Part shown: positions 39,812 through 48,641 of the stretch, piece by piece
Numbering within the stretch: the stretch's first letter is position 1
Layout: each line of letters starts with the position of its first letter
The notes under the pieces: model-generated
Databases searched by the model: none
Told to the model about the DNA's origin: nothing
Seen by the model: the letters and a program-made list of their open reading frames with translations, nothing else
Position numbers and translations under genes: made by a program
From: Methanothermobacter sp.
GTDB taxonomy: Archaea > Methanobacteriota > Methanobacteria > Methanobacteriales > Methanothermobacteraceae
Direction of reading: 5' to 3'
Assembly: GCF_030055435.1 (NCBI RefSeq)
Contig: NZ_JASFYG010000001.1
Location: 1-50,153 of the forward strand
DNA length: 50,153 nt

Positions 39812-40357
39812 ATGAGATCACTCGTTGCATTGGTTCTTCTAGCAGTGATCCTTCTGGGTTCAGTCCCAAAGGTGTTTGCAGCTACCTCACCGTCATCCAC
39901 ACAGGAGCTTCAGGCTGAAGTCGAGCCAACAATAGCCATTGGGGCATTCTGGAAGGGTGGTGCAAATAACAGCACAATATACCTTCTTGATCTACTTGCA
40001 GATAATCAGGAATACACATGGGAAGGTGGATCAAACGGTGAACAGGTCAGACATTCATCAAACGTCGCCATAGACCTCTATGTGCGTGCAGCAGGAGACC
40101 TTCAGAACGGTACGAACACCATATCCCTTTCCAACCTCAAATACGCAGATTACGGTGACAATGTAGCAAAAACAGCATTCACAACCACCTACGCTCTTGT
40201 AAGGGAGAACTGGGCTCCACCAGCACAGGGTTCAGAGGCCATAATCCCGGTTGACCTCTTCCTGCTTGTGCCATTTGCAACACCACCTGGTAACTACACC
40301 ACAACAATATACCATGCCGCTGTAGAGACCGGTGGAACAGCACCAAGCAGTCCATAG
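39812..40357 (+). CDS. Secreted surface protein with signal peptide
   Basis: This 181-residue protein has a clear signal peptide (RSLVALVLLAVILLGSVPKVFA, cut probably before ATSPSS), then a beta-rich body with NST, NGT and NYT sequons and aromatic strands (IAIGAFWKGG, EYTWEGG, FTTTYALV). Function is unknown. A TATA-like AATTATATAC near 39755 and GGGGGTGATGG before the ATG support expression. A T-tract lies downstream, then a second secreted protein with a C-terminal anchor. The two may form a surface assembly. Confidence 0.75.
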   Translation: MRSLVALVLLAVILLGSVPKVFAATSPSSTQELQAEVEPTIAIGAFWKGGANNSTIYLLDLLADNQEYTWEGGSNGEQVRHSSNVAIDLYVRAAGDLQNGTNTISLSNLKYADYGDNVAKTAFTTTYALVRENWAPPAQGSEAIIPVDLFLLVPFATPPGNYTTTIYHAAVETGGTAPSSP

Positions 40358-40374
40358 GTTGAACAATCCTTTCA

Positions 40375-40381
40375 TTTTTTT
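40375..40381 (+). terminator. Oligo-T tract between the two surface-protein genes
   Basis: Seven T lie shortly after the stop of the first secreted protein. This may end part of the transcripts, but the second gene's ribosome binding site follows within ten bases, so readthrough is likely. Confidence 0.3.
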
Positions 40382-40399
40382 ATTTTGGGAGGTGTTAAA

Positions 40400-41284
40400 C
40401 TGGATAGAAGAATTTTACTTGTAGTATCAATCGTGCTTATCATGTCGTTAATCGGGGAGTGCCTCGCTGTAGGTGTTGTTGTGGCACCCACACGGTTTGA
40501 GTTCAGGGGTGCCGGTGAACATACAGGTAAGATTACAGTTTCAAACCCATACGGTGAGGTCCTGCAGGTCACAGTAACCCCGAAGAGGATACTGAAGGAT
40601 AAAAAGAATCTTCTGCTTCTTGATGATGGAGTTGCAGACTGGATAACAATTAGCAATGGATCATTCACCCTTCGCCCCGGTGAGAGAAGGGATGTGAACT
40701 TCAAGGTAATGGTACCTGCTAACTACAACTACAGGGACGCTGCGGGGGCGCTGCTTGTAACAGCAACCACACCGGGTAGGAACATTGCCCATCAGGGGAC
40801 CTCGGTGATGCTGAGGCAGGCAAGTGAGGTGATAGTCCCGGTGGTCATAGGCCTTCCCGGGGAGATACGGGAGGGTCTGGCTGTTGAGTCATTCACTGGT
40901 CCGATGATACTCGTGGGGTTGATGCCCGGCAGATTCTCCTATACCCTCAAGAACCATGGAAACGTCTATGAGAACTTCACATCTACCATGAGGGTTAACG
41001 GATTTTTCCATCATACCTTAAACTCCACTGGAGGTCTATATCCCGGAGACAGCTACTCAGATGAAGTTACTTGGACTCCAGGTATACTGGACGCCGGTAT
41101 CTACACTGCAACCCTCAATGTGGACTACGGCCGCTACAGTAGACAGGAACCTCTCATGGAAGAGAGGACAGTTATAGTTATTCCAGTCTGGTTGATAATC
41201 ATTGTAGCCCTTGCAGTGACTGTATGGTTCATAAGGTCAAGGAGGCCGCGAATCCCACGGATCAGGGTAAGGATAGAAAGATAG
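40400..41284 (+). CDS. Secreted membrane-anchored surface protein, DUF916-like layout (probable CTG start)
   Basis: This roughly 294-residue protein has a signal peptide (RRILLVVSIVLIMSLIG), an extracellular region with beta-sandwich features (PTRFEFRGAGEHTGKITVSNP, LRPGERRDVNFKVMVP, FSYTLKNHGNVYENF), and a C-terminal membrane helix (WLIIIVALAVTVWF) followed by an Arg-rich tail. The layout resembles bacterial DUF916 surface proteins that pair with WxL-type partners, by analogy only. The TTG at 40385 lies within the ribosome binding site itself. GGGAGGTG (40387-40394) is correctly spaced before CTG at 40400-40402, which I take as the start. TTG 40385 remains the fallback. Confidence 0.75.
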   Translation: MDRRILLVVSIVLIMSLIGECLAVGVVVAPTRFEFRGAGEHTGKITVSNPYGEVLQVTVTPKRILKDKKNLLLLDDGVADWITISNGSFTLRPGERRDVNFKVMVPANYNYRDAAGALLVTATTPGRNIAHQGTSVMLRQASEVIVPVVIGLPGEIREGLAVESFTGPMILVGLMPGRFSYTLKNHGNVYENFTSTMRVNGFFHHTLNSTGGLYPGDSYSDEVTWTPGILDAGIYTATLNVDYGRYSRQEPLMEERTVIVIPVWLIIIVALAVTVWFIRSRRPRIPRIRVRIER

Positions 41285-41305: not shown

Positions 41306-41430
41306 AATTTTGAATAGGATAAAGCTAATTTTAGGAAATATCTGCATGACCAACCTTCCTAAAACATCATCTGTCCAGTTGGTGGTATCATTAGATGACC
41401 TTTTAATTTAATATGGTCATATATAATCCT

Positions 41431-43083
41431 ATGAAGAATCATCTGGTGGCCCATATTCTGAACCGTGTTGCTGACTACATGGAACTCAGGGGCGATGAAT
41501 TCAGGACAAAGGCCTACAGGAGGGCCGCGAGGACAGTGGAATTTCTTGGGGAGGACATAGAGGATGTGGCAGCCCAGGGGAGACTCAGGGAACTCCCCGG
41601 TATAGGGGAAAACATCGCTGCAAAAATAGAGGAGATACTATCCACGGGTTCACTCTCACTCCTCGAGAAACTGGCAGGGGAATACCCTGTGGACCTTGAC
41701 TCCCTCCTCTCGGTGGAGGGCGTGGGTCCGAAGACGGTTAAACTCCTCTACGAGGAGCTGGGGATAAAGACACTGGATGACCTAGAAGAACAGGCAAGGA
41801 GGCACCGTATAAGGCGACTCAGGGGGATGGGTGAGAAGAGGGAGGCCATGATACTCCGTAACATTGAACTTGCAAGGTCAAGGATCTCCAGGAGACCCCT
41901 CGCCTACGTGGTACCCCTGGCATCCCGGATAAAATCAGAGCTCCTTGAACTTGAGGGTGTCAGGAGGGTTGAGGTGGCAGGATCCATAAGGCGGGGCCGT
42001 GAGACCGTCGGGGACATAGACATACTGGTGACAGCCACCGACCCCCATAGGGTCATGGACCACTTCACCTCCATGGACCTGGTTGAGGAGGTCGTGGTTA
42101 AGGGTTCCAGGAAGTCAACCGTGCGCCTCAGGGAGGGCCTTGACTGTGACCTCAGGGTCTTCGACGACGAGGTCTTTGGGGCGGCACTCCTCTACTTCAC
42201 AGGCTCATGGGAGTTCAACGTGGAGCTAAGGAGGATAGCCATCTCCTCCTCAATGAAACTCAGTGAATACGGCCTCTTCAAGGGGGATGAGAGGGTCGCC
42301 GGGAGGACAGAGACCGAGGTCCTGGAGGCACTTGGACTGACCTACATTGAACCTGAACTCAGGGAGAACCGTGGCGAGGTGGCCGCCGCAGCGGAGGGGA
42401 AACTCCCGGACCTTGTAAACTTCTCAGATATCAGGGGGGACCTCCACATGCACAGCCTCTTCAGTGACGGCATCGATGCAATGGAGTACATGGCAGAGTA
42501 CGCATCCATCCTTGGGAGGGAGTATATTGCCTTCACCGACCATGCAAGGTACATCGACGATGTGGATGCATACCTACGGGCCGCCGAGCGTATAGAGGAC
42601 GTGGAGATCCTTGCAGGTGTCGAGGTCAACATACTCTATGATGGAAGCCTCGAGGTCCCTGATAAAATCCTGCAGGACTTTGACCTGGTTGTTGCAAGCA
42701 TCCATGACCCCGGGAACATCACAGAGAGGCTACTCAGGGCAATGGAGCATGAACCTGTGGATATAATAGGCCATCCCACCGGGCGAGTCCTGGGGTCACC
42801 TGACCCCCTGGTTGACATGGAGAGGGTGGTTGAACGCGCCTCTGAACTGGGAGTCGCCCTAGAGGTGAACTCCAACCCCCTCCGCCTGGACCTTAGAGAC
42901 ACCCATGTCCGGATGGCGGTTGATGCAGGCTGCAGGATCGCAATAAACAGTGACGCCCACTCACGGGGTGCCCTTGAGAACATCAGGTGGGGTGTTATAA
43001 CCGCAAGGCGCGGCTGGGCAGAGAAGGATGATGTGATAAACACCATGGGTATCCGGAAACTCAGAAGGTGGCTTGGCGGCTAA
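41431..43083 (+). CDS. polX: DNA polymerase X family protein with C-terminal PHP domain
   Basis: This roughly 550-residue repair polymerase has an N-terminal helix-hairpin-helix region (LRELPGIGENIAAKIEEIL, LLSVEGVGPKTVKLLYEELG), a PolX palm with VEVAGSIRRGRETVGDIDILV and DCDLRVF for the three metal aspartates, and FTGSWEFNVELRRIA. A C-terminal PHP phosphoesterase follows: DLHMHSLFSDG, AFTDHARY, VEVNIL, ASIHDP, GHPTGR and NSDAHSRG. The PHP part may proofread or process 3' ends. The ATG at 41431 lies a near-leaderless distance from an AT-rich TATA region at about 41402; the ATG-like start at 41413 is less fitting. Confidence 0.94.
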   Translation: MKNHLVAHILNRVADYMELRGDEFRTKAYRRAARTVEFLGEDIEDVAAQGRLRELPGIGENIAAKIEEILSTGSLSLLEKLAGEYPVDLDSLLSVEGVGPKTVKLLYEELGIKTLDDLEEQARRHRIRRLRGMGEKREAMILRNIELARSRISRRPLAYVVPLASRIKSELLELEGVRRVEVAGSIRRGRETVGDIDILVTATDPHRVMDHFTSMDLVEEVVVKGSRKSTVRLREGLDCDLRVFDDEVFGAALLYFTGSWEFNVELRRIAISSSMKLSEYGLFKGDERVAGRTETEVLEALGLTYIEPELRENRGEVAAAAEGKLPDLVNFSDIRGDLHMHSLFSDGIDAMEYMAEYASILGREYIAFTDHARYIDDVDAYLRAAERIEDVEILAGVEVNILYDGSLEVPDKILQDFDLVVASIHDPGNITERLLRAMEHEPVDIIGHPTGRVLGSPDPLVDMERVVERASELGVALEVNSNPLRLDLRDTHVRMAVDAGCRIAINSDAHSRGALENIRWGVITARRGWAEKDDVINTMGIRKLRRWLGG

Positions 43084-43093
43084 AGGTGAGGAC

Positions 43094-45205
43094 ATGACGT
43101 CAATTCTGATCGTAGAGGACGAGGCACTCATAGCATCGGATCTCAGAATGAGACTGGAGGATATGGGCTACAGTGTCGTTGGGGTTGCAGCCACAGGTAA
43201 AGAGGCCCTCAGGCTGATAGCAGAGAAGAGGCCGGACCTTGTGCTCATGGACATAGTCCTGAGGGGTGAGATGGATGGTGTGGATGTGGCCCGGAGGGTG
43301 AAGGAACTCAGGGTCCCGGTGGTGTTCCTCACAGCCTACTCTGACCCCGAGACCATAGGGAGGGCCAGGAGGGCCGGGGCCTACGGTTACCTCCTCAAAC
43401 CCTACGATGACCGGACACTCAAGGTGACGGTTGAAACAGCCCTCAAACGGTACCGGGCAGATATAAGGGACCTCCTGAAGGTCCCAAAGGAGAGGAAGAC
43501 CGGTGCAATCCCTAGTGTCCTTGTGGTGGAGGATGAGGCGATCGTCGCAGCTGACCTCTCCCATAAACTGGAGGAGGCAGGGTTCAGGGTAGTGGGGGTT
43601 GAGGATACAGGTGAAGGTGCTGTATCAGCGGTTTCCGAACTCCAGCCCGACGTTGTCATCATGGACGTCTACCTCCGTGGTGAGATGGATGGTATAGAGG
43701 CCGCGGAGATGATACAGTGCGAACACGGGATCCCTGTGATATACCTTACAGCCTATTCAGATGACTCGACCCTCGCCAGGATACTGGAGACAGAACCCTA
43801 CGGTTATCTCCTCAAACCCTTCAGCACCGAGCAGCTGAGGGCCGAGATCGAGGTGGTACTACAGACCATTAAGGAAACTGAGGATTACTCAAGGAGGATG
43901 CATGAGGTCATCGTCACCAAGGCAGAGGAGATGAAGATAGAGAAGACCGGCGTCTTCTTTGTATCATCTGTGATAGTGGGACTTGCAGCCTATGGCTTCA
44001 TAACATGGAGCATGACATGGCTTATGTACACACTATTCATACCTGTGGTTTACAGTCTCCTGCATCTTTCATTCAGTTACAGGAAACCTGAAAGACCTGT
44101 TTCAGATTCAATGCCCATGGTGAGCATTATAGTCCCCGCCAACAACGAGGAAAACACCATTGAGAGGTGCGTTGAAACCCTATCCTCCCTGGACTACCAT
44201 GTAAACGGCAGGAGGAACTATGAGATCATAGTGGTGAACGACGGGTCAACGGATCGTACCGGTGAGATCCTGGAGGACCTCGTGAAGAGGTACAGGCACC
44301 TGAAGGTTGTAACAAGGAGGGCACCCTTCGCCTTCAACGGTAAGGGGTACGCCCTCAACGATGGCATGACAATTGCTGAGGGCGACGTCATAGCGGTCTT
44401 TGATGCCGATGCCAGGGTTGAACCGGACTTCCTCAGGAATATAGTCCCCTACCTTGATGGTGATGATGTGGCCGGTGCCCAGTCCAGAGTGAGGATGTAC
44501 AATGCAGATGAGAACCTCCTCACCAGGATGCAGGACATTGAATTCGCCATATTCGGCAACGTGATCATGAGGTCAAGGATGAACATGGATGTCCCGGCCT
44601 TCCTTGGGGGTAACGGCCAGCTGGTTAAGAGGAGGGTTGTTGAGGAGATAGGGGGCTGGGATGGCTACGCGGTTACAGAGGACCTGAACCTCAGCGTCAA
44701 GCTGATGCTCAGGGGGTACCATGTCAGGTATTCCCCGGAGGCGGAGGTCTTCCAGGAGGCCGTGAGTGAGTGGCCGGCCTTCTTCAGGCAGAGGACCCGC
44801 TGGCTCACAGGTAACCTGGAGACCCTCTTTGTCTACCTTGCCCCGATGATCGATGCCCCCATAGCACTCCACAGGAAGCTTGACGCCATGTTCTACCTCT
44901 TCTCCATGATCTTCATAGGGTTCGTCATGCTGGGTTATGTGGTGTTCATTCTGAACCTGGCTGGTTTCGGATTCAGGATGGAGGCCCCCTTCATAATAGG
45001 CCTAATATCAACCGTGGCGTTCTTCCCCCTCACAATGAGCGGTATAAAAATGGACGGCTACAGCATACCCCGTACTATACTTTTATCCATTGAGTACTGG
45101 GCCTACTGTTTATACCTCATACCCCTCTTTGTGGCGGCAGCAGTTCACATGCTACGGAGGCGCGAGAGGCGCTGGGCCAAGACTGTCCACAGGGGGGAGG
45201 GATAG
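43094..45205 (+). CDS. Double receiver-domain glycosyltransferase (REC-REC-GT2, BcsA/NAG-synthase-like)
   Basis: This 703-residue fusion has REC1 (about residues 1-118, phospho-acceptor D53 in VLMDIVL, switch TAY, lysine in LLKPYD), REC2 (about 137-255, D191 in VIMDVYL, LLKPFS), two membrane segments (about 290-330), and a processive GT2 domain with NDGSTD (D383), FDADA (437-439), a TED-like catalytic motif in AVTEDLNLS and QxxRW at 566-570. Several C-terminal membrane helices follow. It would polymerise and export a polysaccharide under phosphorylation control. AGGTGAGGAC precedes the ATG at 43094. No histidine kinase is adjacent. Confidence 0.93.
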   Translation: MTSILIVEDEALIASDLRMRLEDMGYSVVGVAATGKEALRLIAEKRPDLVLMDIVLRGEMDGVDVARRVKELRVPVVFLTAYSDPETIGRARRAGAYGYLLKPYDDRTLKVTVETALKRYRADIRDLLKVPKERKTGAIPSVLVVEDEAIVAADLSHKLEEAGFRVVGVEDTGEGAVSAVSELQPDVVIMDVYLRGEMDGIEAAEMIQCEHGIPVIYLTAYSDDSTLARILETEPYGYLLKPFSTEQLRAEIEVVLQTIKETEDYSRRMHEVIVTKAEEMKIEKTGVFFVSSVIVGLAAYGFITWSMTWLMYTLFIPVVYSLLHLSFSYRKPERPVSDSMPMVSIIVPANNEENTIERCVETLSSLDYHVNGRRNYEIIVVNDGSTDRTGEILEDLVKRYRHLKVVTRRAPFAFNGKGYALNDGMTIAEGDVIAVFDADARVEPDFLRNIVPYLDGDDVAGAQSRVRMYNADENLLTRMQDIEFAIFGNVIMRSRMNMDVPAFLGGNGQLVKRRVVEEIGGWDGYAVTEDLNLSVKLMLRGYHVRYSPEAEVFQEAVSEWPAFFRQRTRWLTGNLETLFVYLAPMIDAPIALHRKLDAMFYLFSMIFIGFVMLGYVVFILNLAGFGFRMEAPFIIGLISTVAFFPLTMSGIKMDGYSIPRTILLSIEYWAYCLYLIPLFVAAAVHMLRRRERRWAKTVHRGEG

Positions 45206-45323
45206 AGATGCCTCACCGGTTTTTCACGGAATCATGAGAATCCAGACCCGGCATGCTTCATGATATCAGAAGCACCCATCCCACTGAGAGGAGTACAGAT
45301 GCCAATTCAGGTCCAGGGATGGG

Positions 45324-45530
45324 TCATGAGGGATTGAAAACGACCAGAATGTCTCTGTTCTCTGAAAAACATGCTTGAAGCAGATTCACGTTTACCAGAT
45401 TGCTGATCCACTGGTACTGTGGATTGTAGGTTTCTGGGTACATTGAAACTGAAAGCAGTGTGAATACCAGAAAAACGCTAACACCGAGAAAGCCGATGAA
45501 GGAGCTTACAGGGATAGGGTTTCAGCATTC
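45324..45530 (-). pseudogene. Remnant of a DUF998-like membrane protein
   Basis: On the minus strand one frame reads PIPVSSFIGFLGVSVFLVF then TLLSVSMYPETYNPQYQWIS before a stop. It resembles the N-terminal part of DUF998 membrane proteins (hydrophobic segment, then a YPxxYNPxYxWIS-like stretch). An ATG about ten bases upstream is out of frame by one base with respect to it, and the rest of the gene is missing. I read it as a frameshifted, truncated remnant. The surrounding 45206-45568 region holds no intact gene. Confidence 0.5.
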
Positions 45531-45568
45531 AGACACTAAGGGAAAACATTCCACCAATATCTATTCCA

Positions 45569-46849
45569 TCATACCTTATTCTCTGAGTTCTTCCAGCTGA
45601 ATATGAGGTATAATGGGACGCCCCCCATGATCAGGAGTAAGCCGGCGATGATGGTCCCTGGTGTGGTATTAAGGAGGAGGTAGATACAGATAAGGACACC
45701 CAGGACACTCTTCACAGGAACCCTAGCACCACCTCTCCTTTGAAGTATCACCAGTGAAACGCAGGTTGCCGCGTAGGGGAGTAGAAGGGTTAAAACTGAT
45801 AATTCAATGAGCCCAGCCGCCGTACCGGTGAGTGCAGCTGCAAGGGCCGTGAGGTTCTGGACCAGGATGCTGACGTGGGGTGTGCCGAACCTCCCGTGGA
45901 CCCTGGAGAGGAGACGCGGAAGGAAACCATCCCTGGACATGGCAAAGAGTAGCCTTGCAGTTGAGAGCATCCCTGCCTCCTCTGAACCGGCAATCGAGAA
46001 CACGGCACCTGCAGTGAGTATAAGGGCCCCAAGTTCACCCATGAGGCTGTACCCGGCAACCGTGAGGGGTGCGTTTGAGGCTGCAAGGACCCTCCAGGGC
46101 ACAAGCCCAAGGATAACGGCATTGGTGAGGAGATAGAATAGCATCACAAAGACCATCCCCAGGGTTATGGCCAGGGGTATGTTTCTCTCAGGATCCTTAA
46201 CCTCATCTGCAGGGACGGTTACAAGTTCAAATCCAACGTAGGCCCAGAAGACCAGGACGGTGACACCGCCAAGGGCCCCGAGGCCCATGGGTGCCAGGGG
46301 GGTGTAATTAGCTGCAGGGGTTGCGGGGTTGAGGGCGAGGTACACCGCCCCCAGGATTGCAAAGAGGAGCACCGGCGCCACTTTGAGTACTGTCAGGGCA
46401 TCGTTCACCTTACCTGCCCTTCCAACCCCTGCGATGTTTATGAGTGTGAGTGAGACTATGAAGAGGACCTTGACGAGGGCCTCCCAGATGGCATTAAGGG
46501 GGATGAAGTATTCAAGGTAGTAGACGAAGGCTATGGGGAACACCGCTATGGCTATCCACGAGGAGACCCAGAGGGACCATCCGGTTATGAAACCCGCGAA
46601 ACGTCCGAGGGTCTCACATGTATAGGCGTAGGGGCCCCCGGTCACAGGGAGGATCCTGGAGGCCTCAGATAATACAAGGGCAATAACCACGGCCATGAGG
46701 CCGGCCAGGAACCAGGCCATTATGGAGGCCGGGCCAAGGCTACCTGCACCATAGGCAGCCACGATGTAGATGTCAGCCCCCACTATGGTCCCGATTACAA
46801 GGTTAACCGTGTCAAAGAGGGTCAGCTCCCTCCGCAGCTGGGTTTTCAT
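45569..46849 (-). CDS. APC-superfamily amino acid/polyamine permease
   Basis: This 426-residue transporter has about 12 hydrophobic segments. It begins LTLFDTVNLVIGTIVGADIYI, the APC opening with the glycine-rich unwound first helix, then GGPYAYTCETLGRFAGFITGWSLWVSSW and a later FWAYVGFELVTVPADEVKDPERNIP. These are family signatures. Substrate cannot be told. It has a weak ribosome binding site. It ends next to the DUF998 remnant, and its ATG faces the small plus-strand ORF. Confidence 0.88.
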   Translation of the reverse strand: MKTQLRRELTLFDTVNLVIGTIVGADIYIVAAYGAGSLGPASIMAWFLAGLMAVVIALVLSEASRILPVTGGPYAYTCETLGRFAGFITGWSLWVSSWIAIAVFPIAFVYYLEYFIPLNAIWEALVKVLFIVSLTLINIAGVGRAGKVNDALTVLKVAPVLLFAILGAVYLALNPATPAANYTPLAPMGLGALGGVTVLVFWAYVGFELVTVPADEVKDPERNIPLAITLGMVFVMLFYLLTNAVILGLVPWRVLAASNAPLTVAGYSLMGELGALILTAGAVFSIAGSEEAGMLSTARLLFAMSRDGFLPRLLSRVHGRFGTPHVSILVQNLTALAAALTGTAAGLIELSVLTLLLPYAATCVSLVILQRRGGARVPVKSVLGVLICIYLLLNTTPGTIIAGLLLIMGGVPLYLIFSWKNSENKV

Positions 46850-47278: not shown

Positions 47279-48595
47279 TCAAAGGGGATCTATAACATCC
47301 AGGGTCCTGTTTTCCAGGTCCCTCACAACAAACCTTCCATCCTCCTCGTAGATATTTATTTCCTGGTATGTTTCCCTAAATCCAGGTGGGGGCCCATAGC
47401 GACCATTGGAGACCCTCCTCCCGGTCATCCAGGCAACCTTATCTGCAACTGAACCAGAGGCCCACACCACATCACCAGGGGACGTGTGGGTATCAATGTA
47501 CTCCTTAAGGGGATAGTAACGATTTTCAAAGGGCGTGCTCATATCTGCCCAGGAAGTATCGATTAAACTTAAAGGTGCCAGAAATGCAGATGAAGAAAGT
47601 ATGACAAGCAGCAATATTATGATCTTGAAGGAAGCTGGGGATCTGTTTATCAGCTGATTAAAGAAATATGACCCTGTAATAGCAAGGGGAAGCACCACAT
47701 ACTGGAAGGCCCTTGAAACATCAAAGTATAGCTGTAATATGAGTATACCTGTAATGTATGCTACAATAGGTTTAAATTCTTTCCTTTTTCTTATGAACCA
47801 CAGACCGATAGTTCCGCTTATAATAGGTATCAGTGAAAGTTCATTTACCAGATCAAGGCCCTGAAAATCTGAGCTTAGATTTCCAGAAGATGAAGGACCG
47901 TAAACTGCAAAATAAATTATCCAGAATATGATTAGAGGGGATATAGCGATTATCAGGTTCCTATTCTTTTTGATACTATCTGCAAGGATAACAGGCAACA
48001 CCAGAAGACCCATGATATGTGTGGAAATGGCCATCAATGACGTTATGAACGATAGCTTCAGCTTTGACCTTGAGAGAGAATATATCGTGAGTACAATGAA
48101 TATGGGGACGAATGTGGCGGGCATTACTACTGAGAGTGTGTCTGGTCTCGGAGCTGCAAGTACAAGCATCCCTGCAATGAACCCTGCTCTTTCCCCATAA
48201 AACTTTGATGAAACCCATGATGCTGTGAGGACAGTAAGGAGAATCTGGAGGATACACATGATGGAGTGCATGAATCTAACTCCACCAATCCACCAGAGGG
48301 ATGCCATTAGTATATGTATAAGGGGCTGATGCCAGAGGGGTCTTCCTGCTGGATAGTAGACCATGTAGTCCCAGAGGAGACCATGAATTGGATCATCAAT
48401 AATTTCCCTCGCCCTCACAAGATGAAAATCAAGATCACCATGTGTGGGAAACAGATAATATGGATTCAATATAAGAAGAAAGGCAACTACAACAAGCGGA
48501 ATATATGGTAGAATCCTTTGCAACTTCCTTTTACTGAAAAAGTTTATCTTTGGCGGGGCAGTGGAGGGGTTATCCATATCATCTGCAGATTTCAT
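47279..48595 (-). CDS. Polytopic GT-C-like membrane protein
   Basis: This 438-residue integral membrane protein has about ten to twelve hydrophobic segments. The first luminal loop reads FPTHGDLDFHLVRAREI, with an acidic motif at the position of the metal-binding DxD of GT-C glycosyltransferases such as STT3/AglB and GT39. A C-terminal soluble tail follows (TSPGDVVWASGSVADKVAWMTGRRVSNGRYG), as in many archaeal dolichyl-phosphate-mannose-type glycosyltransferase relatives. A glycosylation role is inferred. AAGGTTAT lies before the ATG at 48593-48595, which I prefer over the TTG at 48619. Confidence 0.75.
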   Translation of the reverse strand: MKSADDMDNPSTAPPKINFFSKRKLQRILPYIPLVVVAFLLILNPYYLFPTHGDLDFHLVRAREIIDDPIHGLLWDYMVYYPAGRPLWHQPLIHILMASLWWIGGVRFMHSIMCILQILLTVLTASWVSSKFYGERAGFIAGMLVLAAPRPDTLSVVMPATFVPIFIVLTIYSLSRSKLKLSFITSLMAISTHIMGLLVLPVILADSIKKNRNLIIAISPLIIFWIIYFAVYGPSSSGNLSSDFQGLDLVNELSLIPIISGTIGLWFIRKRKEFKPIVAYITGILILQLYFDVSRAFQYVVLPLAITGSYFFNQLINRSPASFKIIILLLVILSSSAFLAPLSLIDTSWADMSTPFENRYYPLKEYIDTHTSPGDVVWASGSVADKVAWMTGRRVSNGRYGPPPGFRETYQEINIYEEDGRFVVRDLENRTLDVIDPL

Positions 48596-48641
48596 GATAA
48601 CCTTATTATACGTCTGCAATAAAAATAATTATGGTGTTATT

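Follow-up and report, generated by a model that had tools for sequence, protein, structure and literature searches.

A two-receiver membrane glycosyltransferase of Methanothermobacter and its probable direct control by a two-component system

The gene at 43094..45205 (+) of the window (the whole 50,153-nt stretch analysed, from Methanothermobacter sp. contig NZ_JASFYG010000001.1) encodes a 703-aa protein with the domain order REC1, REC2, helical linker, and membrane helices with a glycosyltransferase (GT2) domain. We propose, with a probability of about 0.55, that it is a membrane glycosyltransferase under direct two-component control, in which the signal would pass from a HisKA_2 kinase to REC1, then via REC2 and the linker to the GT2 activity. 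The REC-REC-GT2 architecture is already known, having been published in 2018; what is added here is the comparative evidence on it. An earlier note on this DNA had described a polysaccharide synthase wired to two phosphoinputs and served by orphan kinases, which is a correct observation of a published architecture, and its interpretation is right in outline, but the number of inputs and the kinases need correcting.

The gene is a single uninterrupted ORF, from the ATG at 43094 to a stop codon ending at 45205. The sequence GGTGAGG lies upstream of the ATG (43085-43091); the in-frame TTG at 43073 lies inside the upstream gene, and the Met encoded at 43094 is where the alignment with orthologues begins. 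Pfam recognizes Response_reg twice (3.5e-50) and Glyco_tranf_2_3 (1.9e-34, residues 341-572). The same fusion occurs with 93-97% identity in four congeners, 71% in a sister family and 50-54% in other genera, which excludes that two genes were wrongly joined here. A sequencing or assembly error, named in the earlier note as what would overturn its reading, is thus refuted by independent assemblies from several genera and can be dismissed for practical purposes, no point in its favour having been found; the fusion of a receiver pair to a membrane GT2 is real. A PolX-PHP type DNA polymerase gene (41413..43083, +) adjoins the locus throughout the genus and an amino acid permease gene (45569..46849, -) lies on its other side, both identified by Pfam. 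No linked exopolysaccharide, export or polymer cluster, for which the earlier note had advised looking, was found beside the REC-REC-GT2 gene. Two secreted or surface-type proteins are encoded between the GGGP synthase and PolX genes (39812-41281, +), the second with a weak CARDB match. A genus-conserved 446-aa multi-membrane protein without a Pfam match (47282-48619, -) resembles, by eye only, a GT-C type membrane glycosyltransferase.

The available passages of Galperin et al. 2018 (PMC5847659) include ‘REC-BcsA, REC-REC-BcsA’, assigned to Methanobacteriaceae, in a list of enzyme-output response regulators of archaea, give Methanobacterium, Methanobrevibacter and Methanothermobacter as the only genera with the class, and mention MTH_548 of M. 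thermoautotrophicum by name; BAM69725 is also of this class. Defined after MTH_548 by one or two RECs N-terminal to a PF13641 GT2, the class includes the window protein, which has the same domain order and comes from the same taxonomic group, the named example being from the window's own genus. PMC5847659 is the only publication found under the locus name MTH_548. Its available passages give architecture and distribution, make no mention of gene neighbours or partner kinases of the REC-BcsA class, and do not contain the kinase operon, receiver decay, single fission, gene losses and s208 partner described below.

The GT2 catalytic domain (residues 341-572; 44114..44809, +; PF13641) is bordered by hydrophobic segments at residues 285-306 and 595-688, and hydropathy delimits an N-terminal membrane region of residues 285-328 (43946..44077, +) and a C-terminal one of residues 595-688 (44876..45157, +). 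The DxD (D437-A-D439; 44402..44410, +), TED (528-530; 44675..44683, +) and QxxRW (QRTRW, 566-570; 44789..44803, +) motifs do not vary across ten aligned fused proteins, Q566, R567, R569 and W570 being the conserved positions of the last. The membrane GT2 with DxD and QxxRW motifs reported by the earlier note is confirmed. No DNA-binding output domain is present and the receivers are covalently joined to the membrane GT2, so the absence of a transcription-factor step was also read correctly. The best structural match over the GT2 core is BcsA (PDB codes: 4hg6, 5ej1; E about 2e-15, 328 residues), and the window protein shares with BcsA and PgaC/IcaA the GT-A core with DxD, TED and QxxRW and the flanking membrane helices. 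It differs from them in its input, receiver domains instead of c-di-GMP: a Pfam search of the 703 residues found no C-terminal PilZ domain, and the PgaC/IcaA equivalog TIGR03937 scores 146.8 bits against a cut-off of 422.3. GT2 proteins of haloarchaeal plasmids (Halorubrum lacusprofundi NC_012030 and Halorussus halophilus) show about 30% identity over residues 287-696, including the first membrane helix, but the match stops short of the receivers; in a plasmid search no record covered 80% of the REC-REC-GT2 protein.

The protein is likely a polysaccharide synthase. The main rival to this identity is a GT2 that is controlled likewise but is not a polymer synthase: in the manner of a ceramide glucosyltransferase, it would transfer a single sugar, or a small number of them, to a membrane acceptor such as a lipid. 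The QxxRW motif also occurs in non-processive enzymes and is no proof of processivity; ceramide glucosyltransferase structures match residues 293-573 (26qs, 2e-11), and the low equivalog score and the lack of a nearby export or polymer cluster point the same way. The best structural match is, however, to the processive BcsA, and a GT2 domain flanked by membrane segments is in keeping with a synthase-exporter, so that we regard the non-processive role as unlikely, yet the most serious competitor.

REC1 (43103..43432, +) and REC2 (43517..43849, +), both PF00072, each carry the five residues of a phosphorylatable receiver (D/E-D, D, T/S, K), in both cases as E-D-D-T-K: E8, D9, D53, T80 and K102 in REC1, and E146, D147, D191, T219 and K241 in REC2. 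The acceptor aspartates had been correctly numbered (Asp53 codon, 43250..43252, +; Asp191 codon, 43664..43666, +). Their conservation differs among the 17 intact fused proteins. REC1 is E-D-D-T-K in all but that of G032 (Thr to Ala), and its acceptor Asp is lost in none. REC2 retains all five residues in 15, from several genera, but is degenerate in G032 and G023 (Asp to Ser, Thr to Val). Loss of the acceptor aspartates in orthologues, which the earlier note had set as a ground for abandoning its reading, thus applies to REC2 and not to REC1. Searches of G032 and G023 gave no HisKA_2 match; receiver-site decay accompanies the lack of a detected kinase of this type. G032 is a single-contig 2.4-Mb genome with a single HATPase match; its only receiver domains are those of this fused protein (L040), and both of them are decayed.

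The receiver, GT2, kinase and s208 genes were mapped with local profiles in 56 neighbourhoods, of which 32 loci, with G147 and one contig fragment set aside, have a single receiver on the GT2 and form the split set. All 32 have a stand-alone receiver gene just upstream of the GT2 gene, 29 have a co-directional HisKA_2 kinase gene no more than 3 kb away on the upstream side, and 29 have, at most 100 bp downstream of the GT2, a gene for s208, a protein of ~205 aa with a single membrane helix at its N-terminus. Gene order in the split clade is conserved as kinase - REC - REC*-GT2 - s208, REC* being the GT2-fused receiver. The kinases tested are HisKA_2 by Pfam, most of them with PAS and HATPase_c, and many split loci have two in tandem. 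In the main stand-alone receiver the five residues are complete at every locus where they are readable, its acceptor Asp being the equivalent of Asp53; REC* is degenerate in every split locus, the acidic pair and Thr being lost, and in g2, g5 and g6 the Asp as well. Like pseudo-receiver response regulators, REC* is missing key residues and has an intact receiver as its neighbour. Under the pseudo-receiver definition of Bourret et al. 2025 (PMC12632262), one or more of the five residues being absent, only the split-clade REC* and the proteins of G032 and G023 qualify; REC2 of the window does not, because all five are present; a coupling domain that has kept them is the better description. The same paper proposes phosphorylation-dependent contact between receiver and pseudo-receiver as a general mode for pseudo-receivers. 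The receivers of the split pathway are almost the only ones in many Methanobrevibacter-like genomes.

The s208 protein combines a membrane helix at its N-terminus with an extracytoplasmic domain (for example L042:10643-11266, L044:7480-8112 and L045:5049-5675); it adjoins nearly all split or paralogous GT2 genes and is a possible accessory or export partner. It has no Pfam or PDB match, and its gene is absent from the window's genome. In G012 an intact s208 (L148:6262-6873) follows a GT2 reduced to a 47-aa remnant, so s208 can outlive the synthase. At four further loci a fused REC-REC-GT2 is followed by s208 and then by a 200-aa HisKA_2 protein; such proteins, without a sensor domain, are encoded at L098:3396-3998, L099:9581-10180 and L100:7717-8334.

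In a GT2 tree (IQ-TREE, 53 rows) all split proteins form a single clade (99/94) that branches from among the fused lineages, and hence one fission of a fused ancestor would be the simplest account; the tree is unrooted and the fused-to-split direction is by parsimony. A receiver tree of 123 columns groups the stand-alone RECs with REC1, and REC* with REC2, of fused proteins of the same clade; this short tree leaves the orthology of the Methanothermobacter receivers to the split-clade REC1/REC2 unresolved. These groupings indicate one signalling unit in fused and split forms, and this speaks for the two receivers being in contact.

None of the kinase matches of this genome lies in the window, the nearest on the contig being at about 144 kb. 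The earlier note was right that no kinase is nearby, but its appeal to orphan kinases does not carry over to the relatives, where a PAS-HisKA_2 kinase is encoded just upstream in 29 of the 32 split loci; since kinases are co-encoded there, the missing neighbour is not a family feature. In three g8 genomes the fused gene has the orthologous kinase-receiver cluster about 4 kb to its upstream side. Among the genomes of family f2, GT2 and HisKA_2 occur together in 46, GT2 alone in 2, the kinase alone in 8 and neither in 83 (Fisher 6.5e-26, a test that ignores relatedness and partly counts the operon itself). A choice of the cognate kinase by similarity failed, the best candidate (C1:156556, 112 bits) being barely above the next (110 bits). 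A scan of the genome contigs with single-protein patterns gave receiver-domain matches only.

Taken on conservation, the natural reading is that REC1 would take the phosphoryl group and REC2 would couple it to the enzyme. A HisKA_2-type histidine kinase, for the window protein one encoded elsewhere in the genome, would phosphorylate the REC1 Asp; REC1~P would pair with REC2, and REC2 would relay the state via the helix that leads into the first membrane segment. This linker, predicted as helical by a low-confidence single-sequence AlphaFold2 model (mean pLDDT 43.6, too weak for firm claims), spans residues 245-284 (43826..43945, +), and its K276, E279, E283 and K284 are invariant in the aligned fused proteins. 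The relayed state would set the activity of the GT2, which most probably polymerises and exports a surface polysaccharide. The domain order, the intact catalytic motifs, the retained REC1 Asp, a dispensable REC2 site and the kinases co-encoded in relatives can be read from the sequences; from phosphotransfer and REC1-REC2 pairing to the direction of the effect and the polysaccharide product, the steps are what we infer. The control logic resembles that of BcsA, which is controlled by c-di-GMP through PilZ, with receivers replacing PilZ.

Two other roles of the receivers have to be weighed against this one. Both may be independent phosphoinputs, served by two kinases as an AND/OR gate, as the intact REC2 of 15 fused proteins and the tandem kinase pairs at many split loci would suggest. 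The “two phosphoinputs” of the earlier note hold insofar as both window receivers have their five residues; but GT2 is retained in G032, G023 and the whole split clade where the REC2 site is gone, and tandem kinases persist where the operon retains only one phosphorylatable receiver, which makes two separate inputs improbable. Still less credible is a part for the receivers in folding, localisation or docking to proteins in which phosphorylation would not matter. Degenerate receivers do persist, and G032 keeps the protein without a detectable HisKA_2 and with its lone HATPase match; against this, the REC1 Asp is intact in all intact proteins, the stand-alone RECs are intact throughout, and kinase genes are adjacent. 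With direct control by a kinase through REC1 preferred, we give an even chance to a complete archaeal kinase-to-synthase pathway without a transcription step, composed of PAS-HisKA_2 kinase(s), a phosphorylatable receiver, a pseudo-receiver-GT2 and the membrane-anchored extracytoplasmic s208 in one conserved operon, from which Methanothermobacter would differ in having both receivers fused and the kinase apart.

Most archaeal response regulators are without DNA-binding outputs. The conserved operon described here ends in an enzyme, and a direct assay is therefore conceivable, with kinase, receiver and synthase combined and sugar transfer read out; the comparative evidence thus makes a long-listed protein class directly testable. 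A surface sugar layer has been described in the aggregating Methanothermobacter CaT2 (PMC6759345) and is, by inference, a candidate product of the GT2. The pathway would link environmental sensing to a CaT2-type surface sugar layer, which bears on methanogen granules and gut colonisation.

The GT2 (E<=1e-60) is found in 55 of 151 Methanobacteriales genomes and in 11 of the 19 genera of the order, families other than Methanobacteriaceae (coded f1 and f3) among them. In the window's genus five of the eight genomes have the gene intact; it is broken in G006, a short REC2 remnant in G005 and absent from G003, so it is not essential; the PolX and permease flanks, which mark the locus, remain in congeners where it is lost, which points to repeated loss within the genus. 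A gene for a TPR-plus-membrane protein, missing in G007 and without trace in the window (45206-45568), lies directly downstream in G001, G002 and G004 (L031:6750-7895, L034:6658-7905 and L032:6647-7894). Elsewhere, the 1396-aa family GT2 protein of G088 (L095:5007-9194) has about 1000 residues without an assigned domain in front, and at L096:2147-6619 (G084) a REC and a long unassigned region of about 1000 residues precede the GT2 in a broken frame.
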